DNA of 32,526 bases, from assembly GCF_003533305.1 (NCBI RefSeq), contig NZ_DOEH01000013.1, positions 1 to 32,526 on the forward strand, written 5' to 3'. Under the pieces are notes generated by a model, which did no database searches, was not told the origin of the DNA, and worked only from the letters and a program-made list of their open reading frames with translations. The position numbers and the translations under genes were made by a program. Of the stretch, positions 2,627 to 25,815 are shown piece by piece. Position 1 is the first letter of the stretch; the number at the start of each line of letters is the position of its first letter. Origin of the DNA: Providencia sp. GTDB taxonomy: Bacteria; Pseudomonadota; Gammaproteobacteria; Enterobacterales; Enterobacteriaceae.

Positions 2627-3417
2627 CAGAAGTTCTCCGGTATGAATTCTTGGGTTCGACTAGGTGGCATAACGCGCTTTGATGGCGTCCAAGCTGACTT
2701 GGTGTTTTTGTTCTGGTAATTCAATTTCTGGCTAGCAGTGATAAACCAGTTCTTAGGTTTGTCAGCTCTAAACTCAATATCCAGTCGTCTCAGTTCGTGT
2801 TCAAGGTCGATGTTTGAATACAGGCTTTGCCACTCAGTGAAATCTTTTTGGTTTAATCGGATCACCTCGCCTTCAAATGCATACTTGCTAGACATCTGGT
2901 GAATACTTGCTGATTTATTTTCTGACTCATCAGGACAAGCCGGATTTTCGGCTTGGGTGTTATAGGGAATCAGGTTAAGGGAATCAGGATGAGGGAAGAG
3001 GGAATCAGCAGGGATAGTTTTGTTCTCTTCTGATTCTTGCACCATACTAGAACCGTGCTTTTCTGGTGCTTCTTCAATATCAATAGGTTGCGTTACTTGT
3101 TCTGGTATTTCACTAGCCGCTTCTTTCATGTGTGGGTTCTGGTGTTTCTTCCAGTTATTAATCTGGATAAACTCATTTCCATCTACTACATATCTAGTGA
3201 TAAAGTTTTTGCCATGTAATTGAGCGAGTAATTTGTCACAATCCGCATCGTCATAAGGCAAAACCATAGCTTTAATTTTGCGTGGTTTATCTTCTAGTCG
3301 ACCTTCGCGATCGGCAACTGTCCATAAGCCTACAAAAAGAACACGAGCCAATGGCTCGCATTCTGCTAAATCATCATTAGTAAAAAAGCCTGGCTTAATA
3401 TTTCTTGCTCTGGCCAT
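2626..3417 (-). CDS. Phage replication initiation protein (O-like, DnaT-like C-terminus)
   Basis: 263 residues. Residues 1-98 form a winged-helix-type domain typical of phage replication proteins (start ARARNIKPGFFTNDDLAE, then ALARVLFVGLW-like LARVLFVGLWTVADREGR and IQINNWKKHQNPH). A low-complexity linker follows to about 180. The C-terminal part (about 187-237: FTEWQSLYSNIDLEHELRRL, then KPKNWFITASQKLN) resembles DnaT/primosomal C-termini. The likely role is origin recognition and recruitment of the DnaC-like loader encoded next. By lambda analogy the origin may lie inside this gene, but I found no clear iterons. It overlaps its neighbours by 1 bp on both sides. Confidence 0.82.
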   Translation of the reverse strand: MARARNIKPGFFTNDDLAECEPLARVLFVGLWTVADREGRLEDKPRKIKAMVLPYDDADCDKLLAQLHGKNFITRYVVDGNEFIQINNWKKHQNPHMKEAASEIPEQVTQPIDIEEAPEKHGSSMVQESEENKTIPADSLFPHPDSLNLIPYNTQAENPACPDESENKSASIHQMSSKYAFEGEVIRLNQKDFTEWQSLYSNIDLEHELRRLDIEFRADKPKNWFITASQKLNYQNKNTKSAWTPSKRVMPPSRTQEFIPENF

Positions 3418-4085
3418 TAGAAAGGTACCTCCGTTATTTTTGCTAAATCAGGATACTTTAGTTCCCATTCCTTTCGCTGCTGCCCGATATAGCTATGAAT
3501 CAAATGAGCTGCCCCATCAGCAAAATAAAGAGAATGAGATTCATTGAATTTTTTGTGGCATAGGTGAGCGGCAAGTCTTATTAACCTTTCGGCAGTAGCA
3601 AGCTTGCAGCCAAGTACTCTAATGTCTAAAGAATCAAATAATTCATCAAGCCTTAGCTCTTTTAATGATTCTGAACAGATAATGTCAAAAGAGTCAGCGA
3701 GATCCTCTACCTTGGTTCCAGTTAAGGCCAAGCAAACTTCTGAACATATATCTGTTATATCTTCTAGGTCGCACTTAAAAAATTCCCTTGATTCATTTAT
3801 TCTGAATTCAGATAAGTGTTTGTGAATAAAGGATTCATCATCCGCTGGTGCGTCAGAATAAAAAGATGCCTCTATCTTGAATTTATCTGGAACGCCTGTC
3901 GCTGATGAGAGTTCTTTTGCTCTACTTTCGGGGGATACAGTTGTCATCCCTACCTTATAGATACCGGGCATATACTCATTACTAAGAACATACACCCAAC
4001 CTTCTGTTCTGAAGTTGTCAGGTAAATCGGCTGTCTTGCGAATATCCCTAGAAACGTTCATGCCGCCTAGGTGTCCTATGCTCAT
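3417..4085 (-). CDS. GIY-YIG family protein, T5orf172 type
   Basis: 222 residues. The N-terminal domain (about residues 28-112) shows the T5orf172 branch of the GIY-YIG fold: GWVYVLSN, then YKVGMTT, RAKELSSATGVPDKFKIEA, a conserved DDESFIHKHL and a closing ESREFFKC. The C-terminal half is helical and unassigned. GIY-YIG domains are nucleases, but T5orf172 members are largely uncharacterised. The start has GGAGG about nine bases upstream. It lies between cII and the O-like gene, a place normally without a gene in lambda, and its stop overlaps the O-like start (TAATG). It is therefore made early from pR, and may be an accessory nuclease or a DNA-binding protein. Confidence 0.85.
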   Translation of the reverse strand: MSIGHLGGMNVSRDIRKTADLPDNFRTEGWVYVLSNEYMPGIYKVGMTTVSPESRAKELSSATGVPDKFKIEASFYSDAPADDESFIHKHLSEFRINESREFFKCDLEDITDICSEVCLALTGTKVEDLADSFDIICSESLKELRLDELFDSLDIRVLGCKLATAERLIRLAAHLCHKKFNESHSLYFADGAAHLIHSYIGQQRKEWELKYPDLAKITEVPF

Positions 4086-4158: not shown

Positions 4159-4491
4159 TTAAATTGACAGTTCTATTTGAGCCTCATCGGTTGCAGCCTT
4201 TGAGGTTTTTCTTTTTGGGTATCTGACATACTCAAGCATTGCCGTTAATGCCTTTGCTATCTCCACTGACTCACTACCTTGAATAATCACATCTTGTATT
4301 GGTGCGTCGAACCCTATCGCATCAAGCAACTTAGCCGCCTTCTCGATAAAGCCATTCTCTGCTTGCCATCTAGTGATTTGAGATTCGTGTACACCGACAG
4401 CCTTCGCAACTTGCTTAGGTGTGGTTAAGATGATCCCTTTTCGAATACGGGATTCAATTGCATGTGCATTGCGTGTAGTTGCGTAGTCCAT
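4159..4491 (-). CDS. cII: CII transcriptional activator
   Basis: 110 residues, a little longer than lambda CII (97). The N-terminus (RNAHAIESRIRKGIILTTPK) and the helix-turn-helix VAKAVGVHESQITRWQAENG (about 28-47) match lambda CII region by region. The C-terminal tail (AATDEAQIELSI) matches the usual acidic '..QIxxx' ending. CII activates the repressor-establishment promoter pRE, and a perfect TTGC-N6-TTGC target lies over the first codons of this gene on the opposite strand (4469-4482). It is transcribed from pR beyond nutR, so its level should depend on the N-like antiterminator. Confidence 0.93.
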   Translation of the reverse strand: MDYATTRNAHAIESRIRKGIILTTPKQVAKAVGVHESQITRWQAENGFIEKAAKLLDAIGFDAPIQDVIIQGSESVEIAKALTAMLEYVRYPKRKTSKAATDEAQIELSI

Positions 4492-4553: not shown

Positions 4554-4594
4554 TCTCCCGTTTGCAAGGAGAGCGGATGAAATGTTAAAGAGCG
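4554..4594 (-). promoter_or_regulatory. nutR antitermination site (boxA and boxB)
   Basis: On the minus strand boxA reads CGCTCTTTAACATT (4594-4581), nearly the rrn/lambda consensus. It is followed by boxB TCTCCTTGCAAACGGGAGA (4572-4554), a 5-6 bp stem with loop TGCAAAC. nutL carries a boxB with the same core and loop. The site lies between cro and cII in the pR transcript, as in lambda. Confidence 0.85.
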
Positions 4595-4600
4595 GTATTA

Positions 4601-4786
4601 CTATTTTTTATTGCTGGGGAATGGTTTGATTTCAATTGCTTGAATTCCACCCTCGGTTGCTGTTAACAAAATATTTCTACCCTCTCTGAGGGCTTTACTA
4701 ATTGCGGTCTGATGTACCCCAATTAATGATGCTGCCTTTTCCTGACTGTTATTTTTTACATACTCAGACAAAGGAATTCTTTCCAT
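4601..4786 (-). CDS. cro: Cro repressor
   Basis: 61 residues from ATG 4786, which has AGGAG upstream; the frame extends to 4816 but that would start inside operator OR1. The sequence follows lambda Cro: ERIPLSEYVKNNSQEKAASL, helix-turn-helix LIGVHQTAISKALREG (about 21-36), a beta strand NILLTATEGG and the ending IKPFPSNKK, which is identical to lambda Cro. Cro dimers bind OR and OL and shut down pRM and the early promoters during lytic growth. First gene of the pR operon. Confidence 0.96.
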   Translation of the reverse strand: MERIPLSEYVKNNSQEKAASLIGVHQTAISKALREGRNILLTATEGGIQAIEIKPFPSNKK

Positions 4787-4815: not shown

Positions 4816-4844
4816 ATAATACTGAAAGTATTAATAAAGGTCAA
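4816..4844 (-). promoter_or_regulatory. pR promoter
   Basis: On the minus strand, -35 TTGACC (4844-4839) and -10 TATTAT (4821-4816) are separated by 17 bp. The same two hexamers and spacing occur in pL. One operator (4818-4832) covers the spacer and -10, and another (4843-4857) touches the -35, so bound repressor would block polymerase. Confidence 0.88.
4818..4832. promoter_or_regulatory. OR1-type operator
   Basis: AATACTGAAAGTATT is a near-perfect palindrome inside pR. It is the exact reverse complement of the OL operator at 7988-8002. Confidence 0.88.
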
Positions 4845-4857
4845 TACATATGGTATT
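4843..4857. promoter_or_regulatory. OR2-type operator
   Basis: AATACATATGGTATT begins 25 bp after the first operator. It lies just upstream of the weak -35 region of pRM, where bound CI could contact polymerase and activate its own gene. Confidence 0.82.
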
Positions 4858-4866
4858 AACACTTTT

Positions 4867-4881
4867 AATAGCATTGGTATT
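4867..4881. promoter_or_regulatory. OR3-type operator
   Basis: AATAGCATTGGTATT lies 24 bp from OR2 and overlaps the first base of the presumed pRM -10 (TAGAAT, 4881-4886). Binding here should repress cI, the lambda OR3 logic. It is the weakest match of the three. Confidence 0.78.
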
Positions 4882-4893
4882 AGAATTGAGACA
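4881..4893 (+). promoter_or_regulatory. pRM -10 region; cI mRNA likely leaderless
   Basis: TAGAAT (4881-4886) ends seven bases before the cI ATG at 4894, so a transcript from it would begin at or next to the start codon. There is no Shine-Dalgarno sequence and no good -35. That fits an activator-dependent pRM with a leaderless cI message, as in lambda. Confidence 0.65.
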
Positions 4894-5604
4894 ATGAGCA
4901 ATAAGAATAAATTGACGACAGAACAGCTTAATGACGCCAATCGTCTAAAGGCTTTGTATGAGTCCAAGAAAAAATCGCTAGGAATAACACAACAGCAAAT
5001 TGCTGACATGCTTGATATAAGTCAGGGCGGGGTTGGTCATTATCTAAATGGTAGAAACCCACTTAACGTTCAAATCGCTTCAGTGTTTTCTAATTTACTG
5101 CAAGTACCTATAAGCGAGTTCAGCCCATCCCTTGCTAAAGAAGCTGAGCTGATCACTAACGCATTATCTCCAAATGTGTCTAATCCAAGGCCATATCGTC
5201 CAGCGCCTAAATATCCAGTAATTAGCTGGGTTCAAGCAGGGTCTTGGAATGAAGCTTGTGAGCCATACACACTAGATCAGATAGATGAGTGGTATGAGTC
5301 AGAAGTGCATGTGCAAGGCTCCGCATTCTGGTTAAAAGTCGAAGGCGATTCTATGACAGCAGCATCAGGCCAAAGCGTTCCTGAGGGGTCGTTAGTGCTC
5401 GTAGATACTGGTCGAGAGGCTATAAACAATAGTTTAGTCATAGCTAAGTTAACTGATTCGAATGAAGCGACGTTTAAAAAACTGGTCATTGATGGCGGTC
5501 AAAAGTTCTTAAAAGGCTTAAACCCTGCATGGCCAATAACGCCAATCAATGGAAATTGTAAGATCATCGGCGTAGCTGTTCAGATGATGATGCGCTTAGT
5601 CTAG
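4894..5604 (+). CDS. cI: CI repressor, LexA/S24 type
   Basis: 236 residues, the length of lambda CI (237). The N-terminal helix-turn-helix (about 30-66) contains LGITQQQIADML and ISQGGVGHYLNGRNPLN, nearly the lambda recognition segment. The C-terminal half is a self-cleaving S24 domain. The expected Ala-Gly cleavage bond is at A115-G116 (WVQAGSW), the nucleophile is S153 in EGDSM, and the base lysine is K195 in TFKK. The repressor should therefore be inactivated by RecA after DNA damage, making the prophage SOS-inducible. It is made from pRM (maintenance) and pRE (establishment). The genes after it up to the terminator at 7881 are probably co-transcribed in the lysogen. Confidence 0.96.
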   Translation: MSNKNKLTTEQLNDANRLKALYESKKKSLGITQQQIADMLDISQGGVGHYLNGRNPLNVQIASVFSNLLQVPISEFSPSLAKEAELITNALSPNVSNPRPYRPAPKYPVISWVQAGSWNEACEPYTLDQIDEWYESEVHVQGSAFWLKVEGDSMTAASGQSVPEGSLVLVDTGREAINNSLVIAKLTDSNEATFKKLVIDGGQKFLKGLNPAWPITPINGNCKIIGVAVQMMMRLV

Positions 5605-5609
5605 TGGCC

Positions 5610-5626
5610 TGACGACACGTTTTAGG
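5610..5626 (+). repeat. 17-bp direct repeat, copy 1
   Basis: TGACGACACGTTTTAGG starts six bases after the cI stop. It is identical to 6111-6127. The two copies bracket the DUF3024 gene and the small membrane gene, suggesting a recombined or inserted segment. Confidence 0.9.
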
Positions 5627-5633
5627 AGAATGC

Positions 5634-5969
5634 ATGGCACTCAATGAAACAGAAATAGCAGACATTAAACGGTGCATGGAATTCTTTATGATGAAGCGCA
5701 GACCGCCTGCTTTTGTTCGGGATGAGGTAGATTTGCAATATCGTGTTATTGGTAATGAGGTGACTATTTATCGAGTCAATTACATCAATAATAAAAAGTA
5801 TGACTCACCTATTGCTAAGATAGTGCTAAATCGCCCTCATACAAGCTGGAATCTATATAGCATGGTTCAGCCTAACCAATGGATAGCTGCAATCAAAGAA
5901 TCAATACCGTCCTTCTCAGAGGCAATTAAGATAGTCGAGGATGATGTGACTTGTTGCTTCTTTGGGTAA
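5634..5969 (+). CDS. DUF3024 family protein
   Basis: 111 residues with AGGAG upstream of the ATG. 'MALNETEIADIKRCMEFFMMKRRPPAF' followed by RDEVDLQYRVIGNEVTIYRV and a tryptophan-rich second half (TSWNLYSMVQPNQW) matches the layout of DUF3024 proteins (start 'MALNE.E...I...V..FM..RRPP..IR.ELD..YRI'). No function is established for the family. The gene is 30 bp downstream of cI, so it should be expressed in the lysogen, and it lies in the slot where lambda keeps rexA. Whether it takes part in phage exclusion is unknown. Confidence 0.75.
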   Translation: MALNETEIADIKRCMEFFMMKRRPPAFVRDEVDLQYRVIGNEVTIYRVNYINNKKYDSPIAKIVLNRPHTSWNLYSMVQPNQWIAAIKESIPSFSEAIKIVEDDVTCCFFG

Positions 5970-5978
5970 CTATTTGAT

Positions 5979-6113
5979 ATGAAAAAATTACTTAGCTTTA
6001 TATCTAAACATAGGCTGCTGATATTGCTAATCATTGCAGCTACCGCGCTAGGGTATGTACTTCAATTTGTTGAAGAGCCTTTAGCATGGTTAACCGTCTA
6101 TGATAAAGAGTGA
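5979..6113 (+). CDS. Small single-span membrane protein
   Basis: 44 residues, starting MKKLLSFISKHR. One hydrophobic segment (about 13-30, LLILLIIAATALGYVLQF) is followed by an acidic C-terminus (VEEPLAWLTVYDKE). The basic N-terminus suggests the C-terminus faces the periplasm. The ribosome-binding site is weak. The stop codon is the first three bases of the second 17-bp repeat, so the present gene end may have been formed by the recombination that placed the repeat. It lies between DUF3024 and the SIR2 gene. A membrane partner for SIR2 or an unrelated small protein are both possible. Confidence 0.55.
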   Translation: MKKLLSFISKHRLLILLIIAATALGYVLQFVEEPLAWLTVYDKE

Positions 6114-6127
6114 CGACACGTTTTAGG
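6111..6127 (+). repeat. 17-bp direct repeat, copy 2
   Basis: Identical to 5610-5626 (TGACGACACGTTTTAGG); the sequences on either side of the copies differ. It lies 27 bp upstream of the SIR2 gene start. Confidence 0.9.
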
Positions 6128-6154
6128 GTGTGTAAATAAATTAAGGAGCGTTTT

Positions 6155-7789
6155 ATGCCAGAACCTATTTTTAACTTTAAAAACTACCCTATTATCTTCA
6201 TTGGTTCTGGTATATCAAAAAGATACATTAAGAACTTTCCTGCATGGGAAGGTTTGCTGGAAGAATATTGGAAAGTAATAAATAAAACAGATGATTTCTA
6301 TAGTTATCTTTTAGACTTAAAGAAAAAATATTCTAATCATGTTGATGATGCTGATCTTAACCATAAAATTTATACTGAAGCAGCATCTTTTATAGAGGAA
6401 AAGTACAACAACTTATTTTCATCAGGAGATATAAAACTTGATGGATTAACGACAAAAAAAGTATTTAACGACAACATATCACCATTTAAATATTCTATTT
6501 GCCAGAGGTTTGAGAAGCTGGAACTAAGAGATGATATTGATTTAAACGAATATGAATCATTTAAATCATTATTAAAGAAAGCAAAAATGATAGTAACTAC
6601 AAATTATGATTGCTTTATAGAGAACATCCTACACGATCAAGGCGTAAAACCTAGGAAATACATTGGTAATGAAGGTTTTTTTGATGATACCGTCGGGTGG
6701 AGTGAGCTATATAAAATTCATGGTGATGTAGCGCACCCTCACTCAATCATCATAAATAAAGATGACTATGATGAATATGATAAAAAATCTATATTAATCA
6801 GTGCAAAAATTTTATCAAACATGATAAAAAGCCCAATAATATTTATGGGGTACTCTCTATCCGATAGAAATGTTAAAAAATTACTATCTGATTTCTCTTC
6901 TCAGCTACCAAAGGAAGATGGCAGGGTATCATCGGAAAGAATAATACTAGTCGAATACAAAAAAAATGAAAGCTTAGTATTAAAACAGCAAACTTCAGAT
7001 CAGCTACTCCATATAACTTACACATCAATATCTACGGATAACTACAAGCAAGTTTATGATGATATCTGTTTAGTTGATGAAGGGTTATCCCCTTATGATG
7101 TATTACGCTATCAAAGAGCTATAAAAAATCTCATTATTAATGAAGGAGAAAAAGGAAATTTAGATAACTTATTAGTAACACCATCTGACTTAGATAAATT
7201 AGAAGAAAGCGTTAGAAAACATAAAAATCTAGTAGTAGCACTTGGTGACAAAAAATTTGTATTCACGCACATAAAAGAAAGTGATTACATTGATGATTAT
7301 ATCAAAGAAAATAATGAGATATCCATAAAGCCTGCGATTGATTTTATTATAGAAAAACCATTTACAACTAGGATTCCATTTTCAAAATTCATTAATAACT
7401 GTGATTTTACTAAATTAGATCTAAGCAGGTCATGCGTTGATAAACTCAATGGAAGAATAAACGCCCATGGAACACTAGAAGGTGTAATCAATTCTGTTAA
7501 GTTAGATAAAGTCTACTCAGAAATGAAGCTTACATCCATAAAAGAAATTCAAAAAGAAAACCTTACCAAGTACAAAGAATTAATGGTAATAATCAAAAAC
7601 ATAAAACTAATAAGTAAAGTTGAATTAAATAAATTTGTAAAAACAGACGCTTTGCATCTATTTAAAACAACAACAGATGGAAAAGAAAAAACAGAGCTTA
7701 GGCGGCTATTTCTAGCTTATGACTTGCTAACATATGGTGAAGTCCTGACAATTATACCCTATATAGAGAAAAAGGCCGCTATTTTATAA
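6155..7789 (+). CDS. SIR2-domain protein, probable anti-phage NADase
   Basis: 544 residues; AAGGAG lies at good spacing before the ATG. The N-terminal half (about 10-300) carries the SIR2 NAD-binding set: GSGIS (17-21), TTNYD (148-152), KIHGD with the catalytic His at 189, and MGYSLSD (231-237). The C-terminal 240 residues are charged and match no domain I can name. Such stand-alone SIR2 proteins (as in Thoeris ThsA and DSR systems) typically consume NAD+ after sensing infection and stop phage growth. There is no signal peptide or membrane segment. The gene is far richer in A/T than its neighbours (many ATA, AAA and AGA codons), suggesting separate acquisition. It is downstream of cI and ends before a strong terminator, so it should be expressed in the lysogen. 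The SIR2 assignment is firm; the defence role is inference. Confidence 0.88.
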   Translation: MPEPIFNFKNYPIIFIGSGISKRYIKNFPAWEGLLEEYWKVINKTDDFYSYLLDLKKKYSNHVDDADLNHKIYTEAASFIEEKYNNLFSSGDIKLDGLTTKKVFNDNISPFKYSICQRFEKLELRDDIDLNEYESFKSLLKKAKMIVTTNYDCFIENILHDQGVKPRKYIGNEGFFDDTVGWSELYKIHGDVAHPHSIIINKDDYDEYDKKSILISAKILSNMIKSPIIFMGYSLSDRNVKKLLSDFSSQLPKEDGRVSSERIILVEYKKNESLVLKQQTSDQLLHITYTSISTDNYKQVYDDICLVDEGLSPYDVLRYQRAIKNLIINEGEKGNLDNLLVTPSDLDKLEESVRKHKNLVVALGDKKFVFTHIKESDYIDDYIKENNEISIKPAIDFIIEKPFTTRIPFSKFINNCDFTKLDLSRSCVDKLNGRINAHGTLEGVINSVKLDKVYSEMKLTSIKEIQKENLTKYKELMVIIKNIKLISKVELNKFVKTDALHLFKTTTDGKEKTELRRLFLAYDLLTYGEVLTIIPYIEKKAAIL

Positions 7790-7880
7790 GCGACCCTTTC
7801 GATCCCATATGGTGGTGAGATGCTTCCCTACCAGAGCGAAGCGTGGATTAATATTAATAATTCGTATCTTCATTGTCAAT

Positions 7881-7904
7881 AGCCCTCCCAGCGAGGGCTT
7901 TTTT
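7881..7904 (+). terminator. Rho-independent terminator after the cI-SIR2 unit
   Basis: A perfect 7-bp stem (AGCCCTC / GAGGGCT) with loop CCAGC is followed by TTTTT. It closes the lysogenic transcription unit and insulates it from OL/pL, the role of the immunity terminator in lambda. Confidence 0.92.
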
Positions 7905-7987
7905 GTGCCCGCAATTCCCCTCCAGTGTGATTTTCCTCGCAAGATAAATAATTTTTGAAAATAAATTCCGTTTAAATTCAATAAATT

Positions 7988-8002
7988 AATACTTTCAGTA
8001 TT
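7988..8002. promoter_or_regulatory. OL3-type operator
   Basis: AATACTTTCAGTATT, the exact reverse complement of the OR operator at 4818-4832. It is the operator farthest from pL. Confidence 0.85.
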
Positions 8003-8008
8003 TATTTT

Positions 8009-8023
8009 AATATCATTAGTATT
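8009..8023. promoter_or_regulatory. OL2-type operator
   Basis: AATATCATTAGTATT, 21 bp from the previous operator. It overlaps the first two bases of the pL -35 (8022-8027). Confidence 0.82.
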
Positions 8024-8050
8024 GACCACAAGTAATACCTTTAGTATTAT
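8022..8050 (+). promoter_or_regulatory. pL promoter
   Basis: TTGACC (8022-8027), 17 bp, then TATTAT (8045-8050): the same hexamers and spacing as pR. It is overlapped by two operators and reads into nutL and the N-like gene. Confidence 0.88.
8034..8048. promoter_or_regulatory. OL1-type operator
   Basis: AATACCTTTAGTATT lies in the pL spacer and -10, the equivalent position to the operator at 4818-4832 in pR. Confidence 0.86.
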
Positions 8051-8090: not shown

Positions 8091-8130
8091 TGCTCTTTAA
8101 TAATTTAGCTTCCTCCTTGCAAACGGGAGG
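8091..8130 (+). promoter_or_regulatory. nutL antitermination site (boxA and boxB)
   Basis: boxA-like TGCTCTTTAATA (8091-8102) is followed by boxB CCTCCTTGCAAACGGGAGG (8112-8130), a 5-6 bp stem around loop TGCAAAC. The core CTCCTTGCAAACGGGAG is identical to nutR, so one RNA-binding protein should recognise both. Confidence 0.86.
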
Positions 8131-16380: not shown

Positions 16381-16726
16381 AAAAGAAGCAGCAGAAATAA
16401 TTGGTATAACTGAAAACACACTATCACAGTGGTGCAAGCAAGGAATGATCGCATTCACAAAGAAAAACCCATTAAAGAAAAATTCCCCTTACTTATTCAC
16501 TAGAGCAGCATGTATTGCAGCGGCCAACAAATCAATTCACACTATACCAGTGAACACTGGTGAGACAGGAGAAAGGAAACCATGTCAATATTCCAAAGAG
16601 CAAAAATCTGGTACGGGGATTACACGACGCCAAGCGGCAAGCGTATCAAGGAGTCTCTTGGCACAGCGAACAAGAAGCAAGCACAGGAGTTACACGACAA
16701 ACGAAAGTCTGAATTGTGGCGCATAG
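16355..16726 (+). CDS. xis: Excisionase-like protein
   Basis: 123 residues, AAGGAG before the ATG. The N-terminal part (about 5-55) is a MerR/Xis-like winged helix: [41 protein letters not shown]. The rest is low in order and overlaps the first 145 bases of int in another frame. Position directly before int and the DNA-binding fold support an excisionase, which directs the integrase to cut the prophage out. An overlap of xis with int is known from lambda and P22. The 3' part, read in a frame shared with int, may be unconstrained. Confidence 0.65.
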
Positions 16727-17739
16727 AAAAGCTTGGTGACTTCCCTGATGTCACATTTGAGGAGGCGATTGTTCGTTGGATAGAGGAGAAAGCTGATAAA
16801 AAATCACTGGATGATGATAAAGGTCGGCTTTCCTTTTGGTTAGATCACTTCGAAGGTGTGAAGCTGAAAGATATTACAGAGGCAAAAATTTATGCAGCTG
16901 TAAGCAAGATGAGAAATAGGAAGGTTAGAGAGCGGTGGGAAAAGCAAGCTGAAGCAGCTAAGCGTAAGGGAAAGGAAATCCCTGCTTATTCAGAAGTACA
17001 AGTAACAACAGCTACCAAGGCAAAGCATTTGGCAATTATGAAGTCATTACTACGAACTGCTGAGCGCGAGTGGAAATGGCTGGAAAAGTCACCTGTTATT
17101 AAAGTGCCAACAGTGAGAGAAAAACGGGTTCGGTGGCTAGAACATCACGAAGCACAAAGGCTGATCCGCGAATGCCCTGAGCCACTGAAATCCGTAGTTA
17201 TATTTGCTCTGGCTACTGGGCTGCGACGTTCCAATATAATCAATTTAGAGTGGAATCAGATTGATATGCAAAGAAAAGTCGCTTGGATAAATCCAGAGGA
17301 AAGCAAATCAGGTCAGGCTATCGGCGTGGCTTTAAATGATACATCTTGTCAGGTTCTCAAAGAGCAAATTGGAAATCACCACAAATGGGTCTTTGTTCAT
17401 ACCGAATCCAAAAAGAGACCAGACGGAACATTAACGCCAAGCGTTAGAAAAATGCGAGTTGATTCTAACACAGCATGGAGAGCCGCACTGAAAAGAGCAG
17501 GAATAGAAAACTTCCGCTTTCATGATTTACGGCATACATGGGCGAGTTGGTTAATTCAGTCTGGTGTGCCGCTTTCGGTTCTACAAGAAATGGGCGGCTG
17601 GGAATCAGTTGATATGGTGAGAAGATATGCACACTTAGCACCTAATCATTTAACTGAACATGCGAAGCAAATAGACACTATTTTTGGTAATTGCGTCCCA
17701 AATACGTCCCAGTTAGCAAAAGTGGAGAATTTTAAATGA
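16582..17739 (+). CDS. int: Tyrosine integrase, P22/DLP12 type
   Basis: 385 residues; P22 Int has 387. Arm-binding N-terminus ([20 protein letters not shown]), core-binding domain (about 60-170), then the catalytic domain: Arg in [24 protein letters not shown] (His and Arg), and [20 protein letters not shown] with the nucleophilic Tyr. These blocks are nearly those of P22 and DLP12 integrases. The gene stops 21 bp from the 3' end of tRNA-Arg(UCU), the attachment target. DLP12 uses the same tRNA (argU) in E. coli. It is the last gene of the pL operon. Confidence 0.96.
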
Positions 17740-17760
17740 CGGTAAGTGATTGAAAATTAA

Positions 17761-17837
17761 TGGTGCGCCCTACAGGATTCGAACCTGTGACCTACGGCTT
17801 AGAAGGCCGTTGCTCTATCCAACTGAGCTAAGGGCGC
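17761..17837 (-). tRNA. argU: tRNA-Arg (anticodon TCT), prophage attachment target
   Basis: 77 nt on the minus strand. The acceptor stem GCGCCC pairs with GGGCGC, the anticodon loop is CTTCTAA (TCT), the T arm contains GGTTCGAATCC, and CCA is encoded. It corresponds to E. coli argU. The tRNA is complete although int lies 21 bp from its 3' end, so the crossover must have regenerated it. The att core is probably in its 3' half; the other att copy is outside the window. Confidence 0.96.
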
Positions 17838-17876
17838 ATTGTAAATGCGAACAGCCTATTAAGCTGATGGCGTTGG

Positions 17877-17904
17877 ATTATACGGTTGCTGAGCGCCGAG
17901 TCAA
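17877..17904 (-). promoter_or_regulatory. Promoter of tRNA-Arg
   Basis: On the minus strand TTGACT (17904-17899), 16 bp, TATAAT (17882-17877). Transcription would start about 30-35 bases before the mature tRNA. Confidence 0.8.
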
Positions 17905-18024
17905 TGGCTTTTCGCTACTAAAATAACTATCTGCTCATTTTATGTTACAGATTGACCTGACATTGATGCTAAGTTCTGACAAAATAGACGCATCCCCGAG
18001 TCTCATATATGGATTAAGTTACAG

Positions 18025-18882
18025 ATGTTAGCAAAAATTATTGATGGGAAAACGATTGCGCAGACCATAAGGCAAGAAGTTGCCCAAAAAGTACAGTTAC
18101 GTTTATCTAAAGGTAAGCGTGCGCCCGGACTTGCTGTGATTTTAGTTGGCGCAAATCCAGCTTCACAAATTTATGTCGGCAGCAAACGTCGTGCCTGTGA
18201 AGAAGTCGGTTTTTTATCTCGCTCTTATGATTTACCCAACACGACATCAGAAGCAGAACTGTTGAAACTGATTGATGACTTGAACCAAGACTCACAAATT
18301 GATGGCATCTTAGTTCAGTTGCCACTCCCTGCGGGTATTGATAACGTCAAAGTTATTGAAAGAATCCATCCTGACAAAGATGTCGATGGTTTCCACCCTT
18401 ATAATGTCGGTCGACTATGCCAACGAGCCCCTCGCCTGCGCCCGTGCACACCTAAAGGTATCGTCACCCTGCTTGAACGTTATGACATTAATACCTATGG
18501 GTTAAATGCGGTAATTGTTGGCGCTTCAAATATCGTTGGTCGTCCAATGAGCCTTGAATTATTATTAGCGGGCTGCACCACAACGGTAACTCACCGGTTT
18601 ACCCAAAACTTAGAACAACATGTTCGCAACGCAGATTTACTCGTTGTTGCTGTTGGTAAGCCTAACTTTATACCGGGTGAGTGGATAAAACCGGGTGCAA
18701 TAGTAGTTGATGTGGGCATTAACCGCTTAGACAACGGCAAAGTGACTGGCGATATTGATTTTGATGAAGCCTCGAAATTCGCCTCTTGGATAACCCCTGT
18801 ACCGGGCGGTGTCGGGCCAATGACCGTCGCTACCCTTATCCAAAACACGCTGCAAGCGTGCGAAGAGTATCACGATATTTAA
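18025..18882 (+). CDS. folD: Methylenetetrahydrofolate dehydrogenase / cyclohydrolase
   Basis: 285 residues (288 in E. coli). Bifunctional cytosolic enzyme: oxidises 5,10-methylene-THF with NADP+ and hydrolyses the product to 10-formyl-THF, feeding purine and formyl-methionine synthesis. Visible are Y50 and catalytic K54 in [39 protein letters not shown], the Rossmann motif [18 protein letters not shown] and the closing [15 protein letters not shown]. It is adjacent to tRNA-Arg and followed 17 bp later by ybcJ. Confidence 0.98.
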
Positions 18883-23507: not shown

Positions 23508-24725
23508 TTAAACTAGCTTATCCGTCTTCATGATTTTTTCAACTTCCTGTAATGTATGATGCTGTTCTCTAGTCTGAACCATAGTTGGTGTACCACTTTC
23601 ACGTAAATCTAAGATAATTTCTGTTGCTGATAATGTATTTTCTGATTTCATTAATTGCATTGCACCAACAACCAATCCTGTACGACCAACACCAGCTTTA
23701 CAGTGAATCAAAGGAAGTTGTTCTCTTAGGTTATTCTCTTTGTTTCTATTACTTGTGGCCCATCCATTTAACTTTGTTTTAGTCATTAAATTAACTTCTT
23801 TTGCTAAAGCGACTACATCCATTGCTTTTACTGTTGTTTTATCTTCCCAATTAGTGACATGACTCACCGGTATATAATGATTTTTTTTAATACCATCTTG
23901 GGCATAACTTATTTTCATTTTATAACGTTCAATGATTAACTCCCCCTTCTTAATAGTGATATGTTTATTAGGGCGAGTGACAGTTACCTCAAAAGCTCCA
24001 CTTTTTTTATTTTCCATAAAATAGGCTGGGAGTTTGCCTTTTATTATATCATTTTTTGACGCTAAAATCAGTATGGCGGGAACTTTATTATCCACAATCA
24101 TTCGAATATGGTTTTCTAATTTTTTACTATCTTCTATAGGATACTGAGAGCGAATAGCAATATTTTCACCATTAATTTGCAAATGATTAGCCGGTAAGCC
24201 TATTTTTTTATTTAGTTCATCAATGATATGTACTTGAGTTTTTTTAGCTGTGGGTATATCACTATACCGAGCGCCAAGAACACCATTACTTTTATTTACA
24301 TAAACAATTTTTTGATCGGTAATCCTTTGGCTTGTCATAGCCTTTAATTGTTCAAAACTTAGCTGTTCATCTAGTGCCAGAAGAGAATTACTTGGTCCTT
24401 GAGTTAAAGCGATAGCTTCATAATTTTGGGATGCTGTTGACCTAATATTCTGAGTATCAGTTGGTACATGTTGTTTTCTGATTCCAATTACCTTATCAAT
24501 AATCGAATGGCTCCATTGTTTTAATGTGTTAATGGCACTTTGTATTTTCGATAAAAATGGTGTTTTTATCGTTGTATTTTTAACAGACTTCATATTCGCC
24601 AATAAAGTTGGAGGTGCAGTCTTTTGCTCTTTAACACCAGCAATATCATCTGTAAATTCAGTAGAATGAGGCAAAGAAGTAACTTGTGCTATAACAGCTT
24701 GTTTTTTAAATACATTCACGATCAA
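23508..24725 (-). CDS. YopH/SptP-like protein tyrosine phosphatase, probable type III effector
   Basis: 405 residues from a TTG at 24725; a GTG at 24719 or a later ATG are alternatives. The catalytic domain (about 110-405) follows YopH block by block: SQYPIEDSKKLENHIRMIVD, VPAILILAS, LPAYF, the general-acid loop HVTNWEDK (Asp295, WED instead of WPD), the P-loop HCKAGVGRTG (341-350, Cys342 and Arg348), and the Q-loop MVQTREQHHTL. Residues 1-110 have low order, as expected for a secretion and chaperone-binding region. It should remove phosphate from host phosphotyrosine proteins. Codon use is AT-rich, suggesting transfer. Catalytic residues are intact; secretion is inference, since no secretion genes are in the window. 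Confidence 0.85.
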   Translation of the reverse strand: MIVNVFKKQAVIAQVTSLPHSTEFTDDIAGVKEQKTAPPTLLANMKSVKNTTIKTPFLSKIQSAINTLKQWSHSIIDKVIGIRKQHVPTDTQNIRSTASQNYEAIALTQGPSNSLLALDEQLSFEQLKAMTSQRITDQKIVYVNKSNGVLGARYSDIPTAKKTQVHIIDELNKKIGLPANHLQINGENIAIRSQYPIEDSKKLENHIRMIVDNKVPAILILASKNDIIKGKLPAYFMENKKSGAFEVTVTRPNKHITIKKGELIIERYKMKISYAQDGIKKNHYIPVSHVTNWEDKTTVKAMDVVALAKEVNLMTKTKLNGWATSNRNKENNLREQLPLIHCKAGVGRTGLVVGAMQLMKSENTLSATEIILDLRESGTPTMVQTREQHHTLQEVEKIMKTDKLV

Positions 24726-24948: not shown

Positions 24949-25815
24949 TTAAATAACTTTATTAATCACACTAAAACTTTCAAAAAAAGTATCAGCTTTA
25001 TTACTTTTAAAAGAAAGTGCAAATAGCTCTTTTTTTGGTTCTGGAAGTTTCCTCTCATAACCAGATTGTGGTAAAGATAGTTTTTTCCGATTATTTATTG
25101 TTTCCGTTATGTGGCCTAATAGATTTTGTTTATCATCTTCATTTAAATAGGAAACATCCAACCAATTAACAACATGAATAACGGGTATTGACGTAACCAC
25201 CTTGTCACCACCAAGTGTAATATTGTAGTTATCGATAGCCAATCGGCCTATATTCTGAGTATTTGAAGTTTTAACGGAAAGAATATTGATATCGCCATAT
25301 TTTTTAAATTTTTCACCTTGAAAAAAGATAGGTGCATGAGCGTCATCACACGTTTTTTCCTCAAGTTCTGTATTTGTAGCTAAAATTATCAATGCACTTG
25401 GTGCCTCATTGAGTAATATTTTTAAATATTGTTCAGTATATTTAGACGCACTTAAAAGCTCATTCGATTTTCTTATTAAATTTTCTTTGTTTATAATGGA
25501 TAGGCCATTTTCTTTTTTATTCACAACACTAATATCTTTAGCGAAATCATTACCTTCATCCTTAATATAGCTAATAAAACTGGGTTTTAAGGTTGTCATA
25601 GATGAAGCATGTTTATTAATAATGCAATGAATAAATCGATGCCATAAATTAATCATCTGATTTTTTAATCCACGAAAACAAGAAGGTCTATTAATATTGG
25701 TATTTTTCACCGATGTTATACTCATATTTTGCTGAGCATCACTATTTTGTCGATTTTCATTTTGTAGGGGCATATTAACTGGAGATCTACCTAATAAACT
25801 GGCCGCTGTTGTCAT
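24949..25815 (-). CDS. Non-catalytic paralogue of the YopH-like phosphatase
   Basis: 288 residues, AAGGGA upstream of the ATG. It shares with the neighbouring phosphatase a segment beginning SITSVKNTNINRP, an amphipathic stretch (NLWHRFIHCIINKH), the core SALIILATNTELEE (140-153) and SIPVIHVVNWLDVS (209-222), which aligns with the general-acid loop (Asp220). The P-loop cysteine and arginine are absent: where the active copy has HCKAGVGRTG, this protein has an unrelated 30-residue tail. The region between the N-terminus and the core is also shorter. It is therefore a pseudo-enzyme or a degraded gene. The frame is clean for 288 codons, which suggests retention. It could be a decoy, a regulator of the active copy or a secreted scaffold. 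The 222 bp between the two genes hold no gene. Confidence 0.7.
   Translation of the reverse strand: MTTAASLLGRSPVNMPLQNENRQNSDAQQNMSITSVKNTNINRPSCFRGLKNQMINLWHRFIHCIINKHASSMTTLKPSFISYIKDEGNDFAKDISVVNKKENGLSIINKENLIRKSNELLSASKYTEQYLKILLNEAPSALIILATNTELEEKTCDDAHAPIFFQGEKFKKYGDINILSVKTSNTQNIGRLAIDNYNITLGGDKVVTSIPVIHVVNWLDVSYLNEDDKQNLLGHITETINNRKKLSLPQSGYERKLPEPKKELFALSFKSNKADTFFESFSVINKVI

Follow-up and report, generated by a model that had tools for sequence, protein, structure and literature searches.

A PDC-S25 SIR2 gene, predicted phage defense cargo, in the repressor slot of a Providencia lambdoid prophage

Genes between cI and the left operators

The window analyzed here, 32,526 bp at the start of a Providencia sp. 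contig (NZ_DOEH01000013.1; contig C25 of a 4.39-Mb genome in 33 contigs), carries a lambdoid prophage whose repressor gene cI is followed by genes for a DUF3024 protein, a 44-residue predicted single-span membrane protein and a 544-residue SIR2 protein, the last of which is our main subject. Open reading frame (ORF) calls and Pfam matches place O/P-like genes, cII (4159–4491; PF05269, 38.6 bits) and cro (4601–4786; PF09048, 68.4 bits) on the minus strand, and cI, DUF3024, the 44-residue ORF and SIR2 on the plus strand. Three OR-like operators and pR (4817–4882; TTGACC-17-TATTAT, minus strand) lie between cro and the cI-like S24/HTH repressor gene (4894–5604; PF00717 and PF01381), and behind the latter come the genes for the 111-residue DUF3024 protein (5634–5969; PF11225, 68.5 bits; PADLOC PDC-S43, 79.9 bits), the 44-residue protein (5979–6113, an ORF call) and the SIR2 protein (6155–7789; Pfam SIR2_2, PF13289, 82.5 bits), whose gene has a GC content of 29.7% compared with 40.0% for the window. 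A terminator-like hairpin and the T run behind it (7881–7899, plus strand), three OL-like operators with pL (7987–8049; TTGACC-17-TATTAT, plus strand) and the left operon follow in that order, with an integrase gene and tRNA-Arg(TCT) further on. A 17-bp exact direct repeat, TGACGACACGTTTTAGG, that the original prediction for this DNA did not mention has copies at 5610–5626 and 6111–6127 (both plus strand) around the DUF3024 and 44-residue genes, and the TGA within the second copy is the stop codon of the 44-residue gene.

ORFs, Pfam matches and operator-like sites thus agree with the original prediction that these three genes lie between cI and OL, and that they fill the rex position behind cI and before OL and N. 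On the OR and OL sides 18 nt are 100% complementary to each other; the operator pattern was derived from these same sites, so its count against shuffled sequences is not an independent one. No homologs of RexA or RexB were found, as Pfam matches above cut-off for the three genes give only DUF3024 and SIR2_2. The unit was also said to end at a strong terminator: a terminator-like hairpin is indeed present, but the scan found three such sites where shuffles give 1.9, and it is the position of the hairpin alone that supports it.

The SIR2 protein and its family

The SIR2 protein matches the PADLOC profile PDC-S25 with 703.9 bits over residues 3–526 (profile positions 5–525 of 528) and phrog_2695 with 549.7 bits over residues 3–530, so that the C-terminal half, originally thought to resemble nothing that could be named, belongs to a family along with the rest of the chain. 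PDC-S25 is a catalogued single-gene phage defense candidate whose defense activity is putative; being a candidate only, it does not place the C-terminal half in a CHARACTERISED family. The protein consists of a SIR2 domain (about residues 1–310, with N150 and H189) and a predicted helical C-terminal part (311–544), for which a fold search gave no solved match; structure prediction does not resolve residues 301–370. The SIR2 motifs at residues 17–21, 148–152, His189 and 231–237 agree in position with the translation, and the catalytic residues are conserved among homologs (N150 in 102 of 102, H189 in 101 of 102). The sole homolog with Asp in place of the catalytic His is P0083, from a Latilactobacillus sakei cluster. 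The C-terminal half is more variable than the SIR2 half; within it, residues 356–370 are strongly conserved, with A362 and G364 invariant, and have the lowest model confidence, and this stretch may fold only in an oligomer.

By both sequence and fold, the closest solved relatives of the SIR2 half are the NADase defense effectors DSR2, KomC and ThsA, and the window protein has the fold of such effectors together with their catalytic Asn and His. Whereas PDC-S25 and phrog_2695 correspond to the window protein over both halves with no architectural difference, other systems differ from it. DSR2, in which SIR2 is followed by helical MD and CTD parts and which is triggered by a tail tube protein, is ~1005 residues long; the 544-residue window protein does not reach this length (~1000 residues with MD and CTD behind SIR2), and its C-terminal part aligns with those of DSR2 only in loose whole-chain alignments (root-mean-square deviation 13–16 Å). 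Thoeris ThsA (SIR2-SLOG/STALD) has the SIR2 domain and catalytic pair in common with the window protein, but ThsA profiles (71.5 bits) match only within residues 145–267, that profile search gave no match to the ThsA C-terminal domain, and no TIR protein that could be a ThsB-like partner was found among seven neighboring proteins scanned with Pfam. The adjacent HerA of SIR2-HerA is absent, the neighbors here being DUF3024, the 44-residue ORF and then OL/pL. BstA, lambda RexAB and the 933W-type Stk occupy the same cI-to-N slot behind a repressor, but these proteins are unrelated to SIR2.

The 17-bp repeat is the 3' end of cI

The repeat reads in frame as the 3' end of cI (..PDDTF-stop), and is found behind cI and again behind the 44-residue gene. 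The window's cI stops at TAG 5602–5604, six codons before the WPDDTF stop of 51 in-frame relatives, and the WPDDTF-stop is retained in frame behind this earlier stop, where it forms the first copy. A scan of IMG/VR with the 17-mer returned at least 120 stretches; the counts that follow refer to the matches listed. Among 143 instances (116 distinct contexts), the repeat forms the final in-frame codons of a repressor gene in 51 (SQWPDDTF-stop in every case), and it stands behind a repressor that ends immediately ahead of it in 32, behind DUF3024 in 28 and behind a relative of the 44-residue gene in 4; the 28 left unassigned comprise 13 of other kinds, 13 with short ORFs and 2 at a locus edge. 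In 22 of 23 two-copy loci the copies are 363 bp apart and flank DUF3024. The reversed pattern gave 22 stretches, and in none of them does a repressor gene end in the 300 nt upstream. In a sample of 392 genomes of the host family, six contain exact copies (4 of 154 genera), with no match to the reversed pattern among those listed, and copies with one mismatch occur in 9 of 24 genomes of the host genus (one match to the reversed pattern). A third copy in the window's own genome (C18:4964–4980) perhaps belongs to a second prophage.

Because the repeat is in frame as the coding 3' end of cI, we dropped the idea that it is a regulatory or site-specific recombination element. The distribution fits cassettes that would have been inserted at, and would have brought with them, a short cI tail, and we refer to the repeat below as the cI-tail scar.

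Cargo of the repressor slot

Behind the last scar, at a distance of up to 200 nt, at least 90 of the at least 120 scar loci have an ORF of 80 or more codons, and these fall into 29 protein clusters. Representatives of 20 clusters, covering 76 of 90 loci, were scanned against PADLOC (E ≤ 0.001); ten gave matches, to BstA (372.9 bits), PD-Lambda-2_A (137.5), PDC-M03A (397.4), PDC-M63A (146.4 and 43.4), beta (70.9), PDC-M66A (57.7), mREase_IV (56.0, partial), capP (46.1) and HEC-09/NYN (19, weak), and the other ten gave none. The weak or partial matches are those of NYN and of L216/L219. Among the matches listed, 12 of 90 loci have a BstA relative in the slot, pairs of RuvC-like and Stk-like genes occupy it in L205 and L252 (317.7 bits to the kinase of phage P27), and HipA relatives are also present.

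Locations of SIR2 relatives

A DNA search of 5,426 E. coli genomes found matches in 164, always on the chromosome, and none spans 80% of the query. In the four regions inspected SIR2 directly follows an XRE repressor and precedes the kil/gam/bet operon, and three of these extend to an integrase annotated intD; we take intD, ybcK and emrE to be DLP12 genes. In E. coli PSJ-14 (L169) the family's gene is interrupted by an IS1 element. An IMG/VR contig (L087) whose SIR2 groups with the E. coli ones carries an integrase that the window's integrase matches with 664.5 bits. Relatives in Gram-positive phages are often beside a repressor or integrase: SIR2 lies between a CI-like repressor and the integrase in SVep1, two ORFs intervene in Javan227, and SIR2 lies between lysin and integrase in BK5-T. 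When the 45 90%-identity clusters other than the window's own (77 loci) were counted, a repressor was found within 2 kb upstream in 19, an integrase within 3 kb downstream in 18 and both in 9. This association is real, but its background is high (below).

The host is probably Providencia, since the nearest named relative of the 44-residue protein is in a Providencia heimbachae metagenome-assembled genome (91%). Closer to this host, the SIR2 protein is present in 1 of 24 genomes of the genus, and 18 of the 392 family genomes match it at E ≤ 1e-20. Besides the window's genome, only three (G119, G361 and G301, the last with an internal stop) have a close full-length relative; the remaining matches have 26–38% identity over part of the length. 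A shorter relative (394-residue frame) is present three times on contig C1 of one 3.1-Mb genome in this sample (G147).

Proposed function

We consider it probable that this PDC-S25 SIR2 protein, encoded between cI and OL, protects the lysogen by destroying NAD+ upon phage infection; its gene is most likely one swappable defense cargo, with predicted defense activity. The original prediction of a role as defense effector is thus supported as probable, as is its proposal that the unit is on in the lysogen, in the form of likely co-expression with cI. Expression of the SIR2 protein alongside cI in the lysogen is likely because bstA shares the repressor promoter in a cI–n gap that is a mosaic hotspot (PMC8585504) and because in Phi24B the genes for CI, DUF3024, the RuvC-like protein and the kinase change together (PMC10789677). 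Transcription from the repressor promoter would fall once cI is shut off at induction, and SIR2 expression would drop with it.

The SIR2 half would be an NADase like those of ThsA, DSR2 and KomC, and the C-terminal half may itself sense infection. Its cue would most likely be a phage protein, by the model of DSR2, where the C-terminal part binds a phage protein and NADase activity is released (PMC11087589). The cue would switch the enzyme on, NAD+ would be lost and the infection would abort, and by analogy with DSR2 the protein may sense and kill by itself. DUF3024 and the 44-residue gene would have been stacked in the slot by recombination at short cI-tail repeats. We suggest, more tentatively, that the cI tail could be a recombination joint at which immune genes are accumulated and exchanged by lambdoid phages of this group of bacteria, each incoming cassette landing on a short copy of the last cI codons, so that one 17-bp tag would index an entire pool of defense genes in prophages, and that the cargo here could be a SIR2 NADase with a helical C-terminal domain as a new built-in phage sensor.

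Alternative explanations

Are the three genes one system? They were originally proposed to form a single superinfection-exclusion system, and they are adjacent, on the same strand and enclosed by cI and a single terminator; DUF3024 belongs to a PADLOC candidate family of its own (PDC-S43), and the 44-residue protein has relatives in sister prophages (one 55% identical) that keep its length of 44 residues. However, a survey of 155 loci found DUF3024 and the 44-residue gene beside SIR2 in the window alone, and neither is present at any of the 77 other full-length SIR2 loci; on this count we rejected the trio as a unit. Beside the SIR2 family no conserved partner gene was seen, and at two loci (L084 and L105, the latter with a mismatch in the scar) cI is followed by one scar and then SIR2, with DUF3024 absent. 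Both neighbors also keep other company. DUF3024 stands behind the repressor with different cargo in P27 (RuvC-like and kinase), ST160 (ParA-like), PSTNGR2lys and IME1369_01, and it is found behind cI in some family genomes but beside host genes in four closely related members of a single genus. Relatives of the 44-residue gene, present in 6 of the 120 scar loci listed, accompany RuvC-like and kinase genes (L205, L252), DUF3024 (L289) or another gene, of 340 codons (L230). Scar copies derived from the cI 3' end, moreover, bracket both genes and lie between the units. A three-part system is therefore quite improbable, and DUF3024 and the 44-residue protein are, as part of the same probable explanation, independent neighbors of SIR2 in one slot.

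A role of SIR2 in the prophage's own lifestyle (the lysis-lysogeny choice or host physiology, for example as a deacylase) would suit its place beside repressors in both Gram-negative and Gram-positive phages, and lambda RexA is reported to affect the switch (PMC12894663); but the closest solved relatives are NADase defense effectors, and slot partners in sister phages include relatives of BstA and PD-Lambda-2_A, so we regard such a role as unlikely. Slightly less likely again is a C-terminal half that, in the manner of the ThsA SLOG domain, recognizes a nucleotide signal which some other protein produces; SIR2 would then be the effector component of a system whose parts are dispersed. The ThsA match to the SIR2 part and the invariant A362/G364 pair in its conserved, low-confidence stretch are in keeping with this idea, but ThsA profiles find nothing outside residues 145–267, the helical model of the C-terminal half found no match in the PDB, and no constant partner gene was observed next to members of the family.

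Several observations weigh against the preferred reading of SIR2 as swappable, NAD+-destroying defense cargo. The share of slot cargo with a PADLOC match (10 of 20) does not clearly exceed that of control ORFs elsewhere in the scar loci (at most 9 of 23, the matches being in nine families with one member each), and the enrichment is not conclusive. A repressor or integrase is also near 22 of 72 other ORFs of 300 or more residues in the SIR2 loci, compared with 28 of 45 SIR2 clusters, and 17 of the 45 have neither nearby, some of them on short contigs. Relatives are present in only 8 of 50,697 phage records, and terminator and promoter scans do no better than shuffled sequence. The structure search against the PDB gave no solved fold for the C-terminal half, whose sensor role we infer, and a search of one literature library found no paper that names PDC-S25 and no experiment on it.

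Other features of the window

A perfectly complementary 17-nt inverted pair, CTCCCGTTTGCAAGGAG, at 4555–4571 and 8113–8129, downstream of pR/cro and pL, has a placement like that of the nut sites used in N antitermination. A T5orf172/MUG113 (GIY-YIG-like) protein is encoded between cII and the replication genes (3417–4085, minus strand, Pfam). The integrase gene (16582–17739, plus strand), tRNA-Arg(TCT) (17761–17837, minus strand; likely the attachment gene) and a folD-like gene follow one another within 16582–18882, which is presumably the gene order of the DLP12 site in E. coli. In the same genome a contig end (C12:547–609) holds a second, 89% copy of this integrase/tRNA junction, perhaps the other prophage end. 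Host-side ORFs include 23508–24725 and 24949–25815 (both minus strand), the first with HCxAGxGRTG in its translation, which we take to be a phosphatase-like motif.

Significance

These findings place a catalogued candidate SIR2 family in the classic rex slot of temperate phages, both Gram-negative and Gram-positive, and the conserved active-site residues suit a clean catalytic-mutant test of the predicted activity. The cI-tail scar is a sequence tag by which repressor-linked cargo can be collected, with at least 29 protein clusters from at least 90 loci so far, and this cargo, which includes relatives of the validated BstA and PD-Lambda-2_A as well as many proteins without a family name, offers good candidates for screening.
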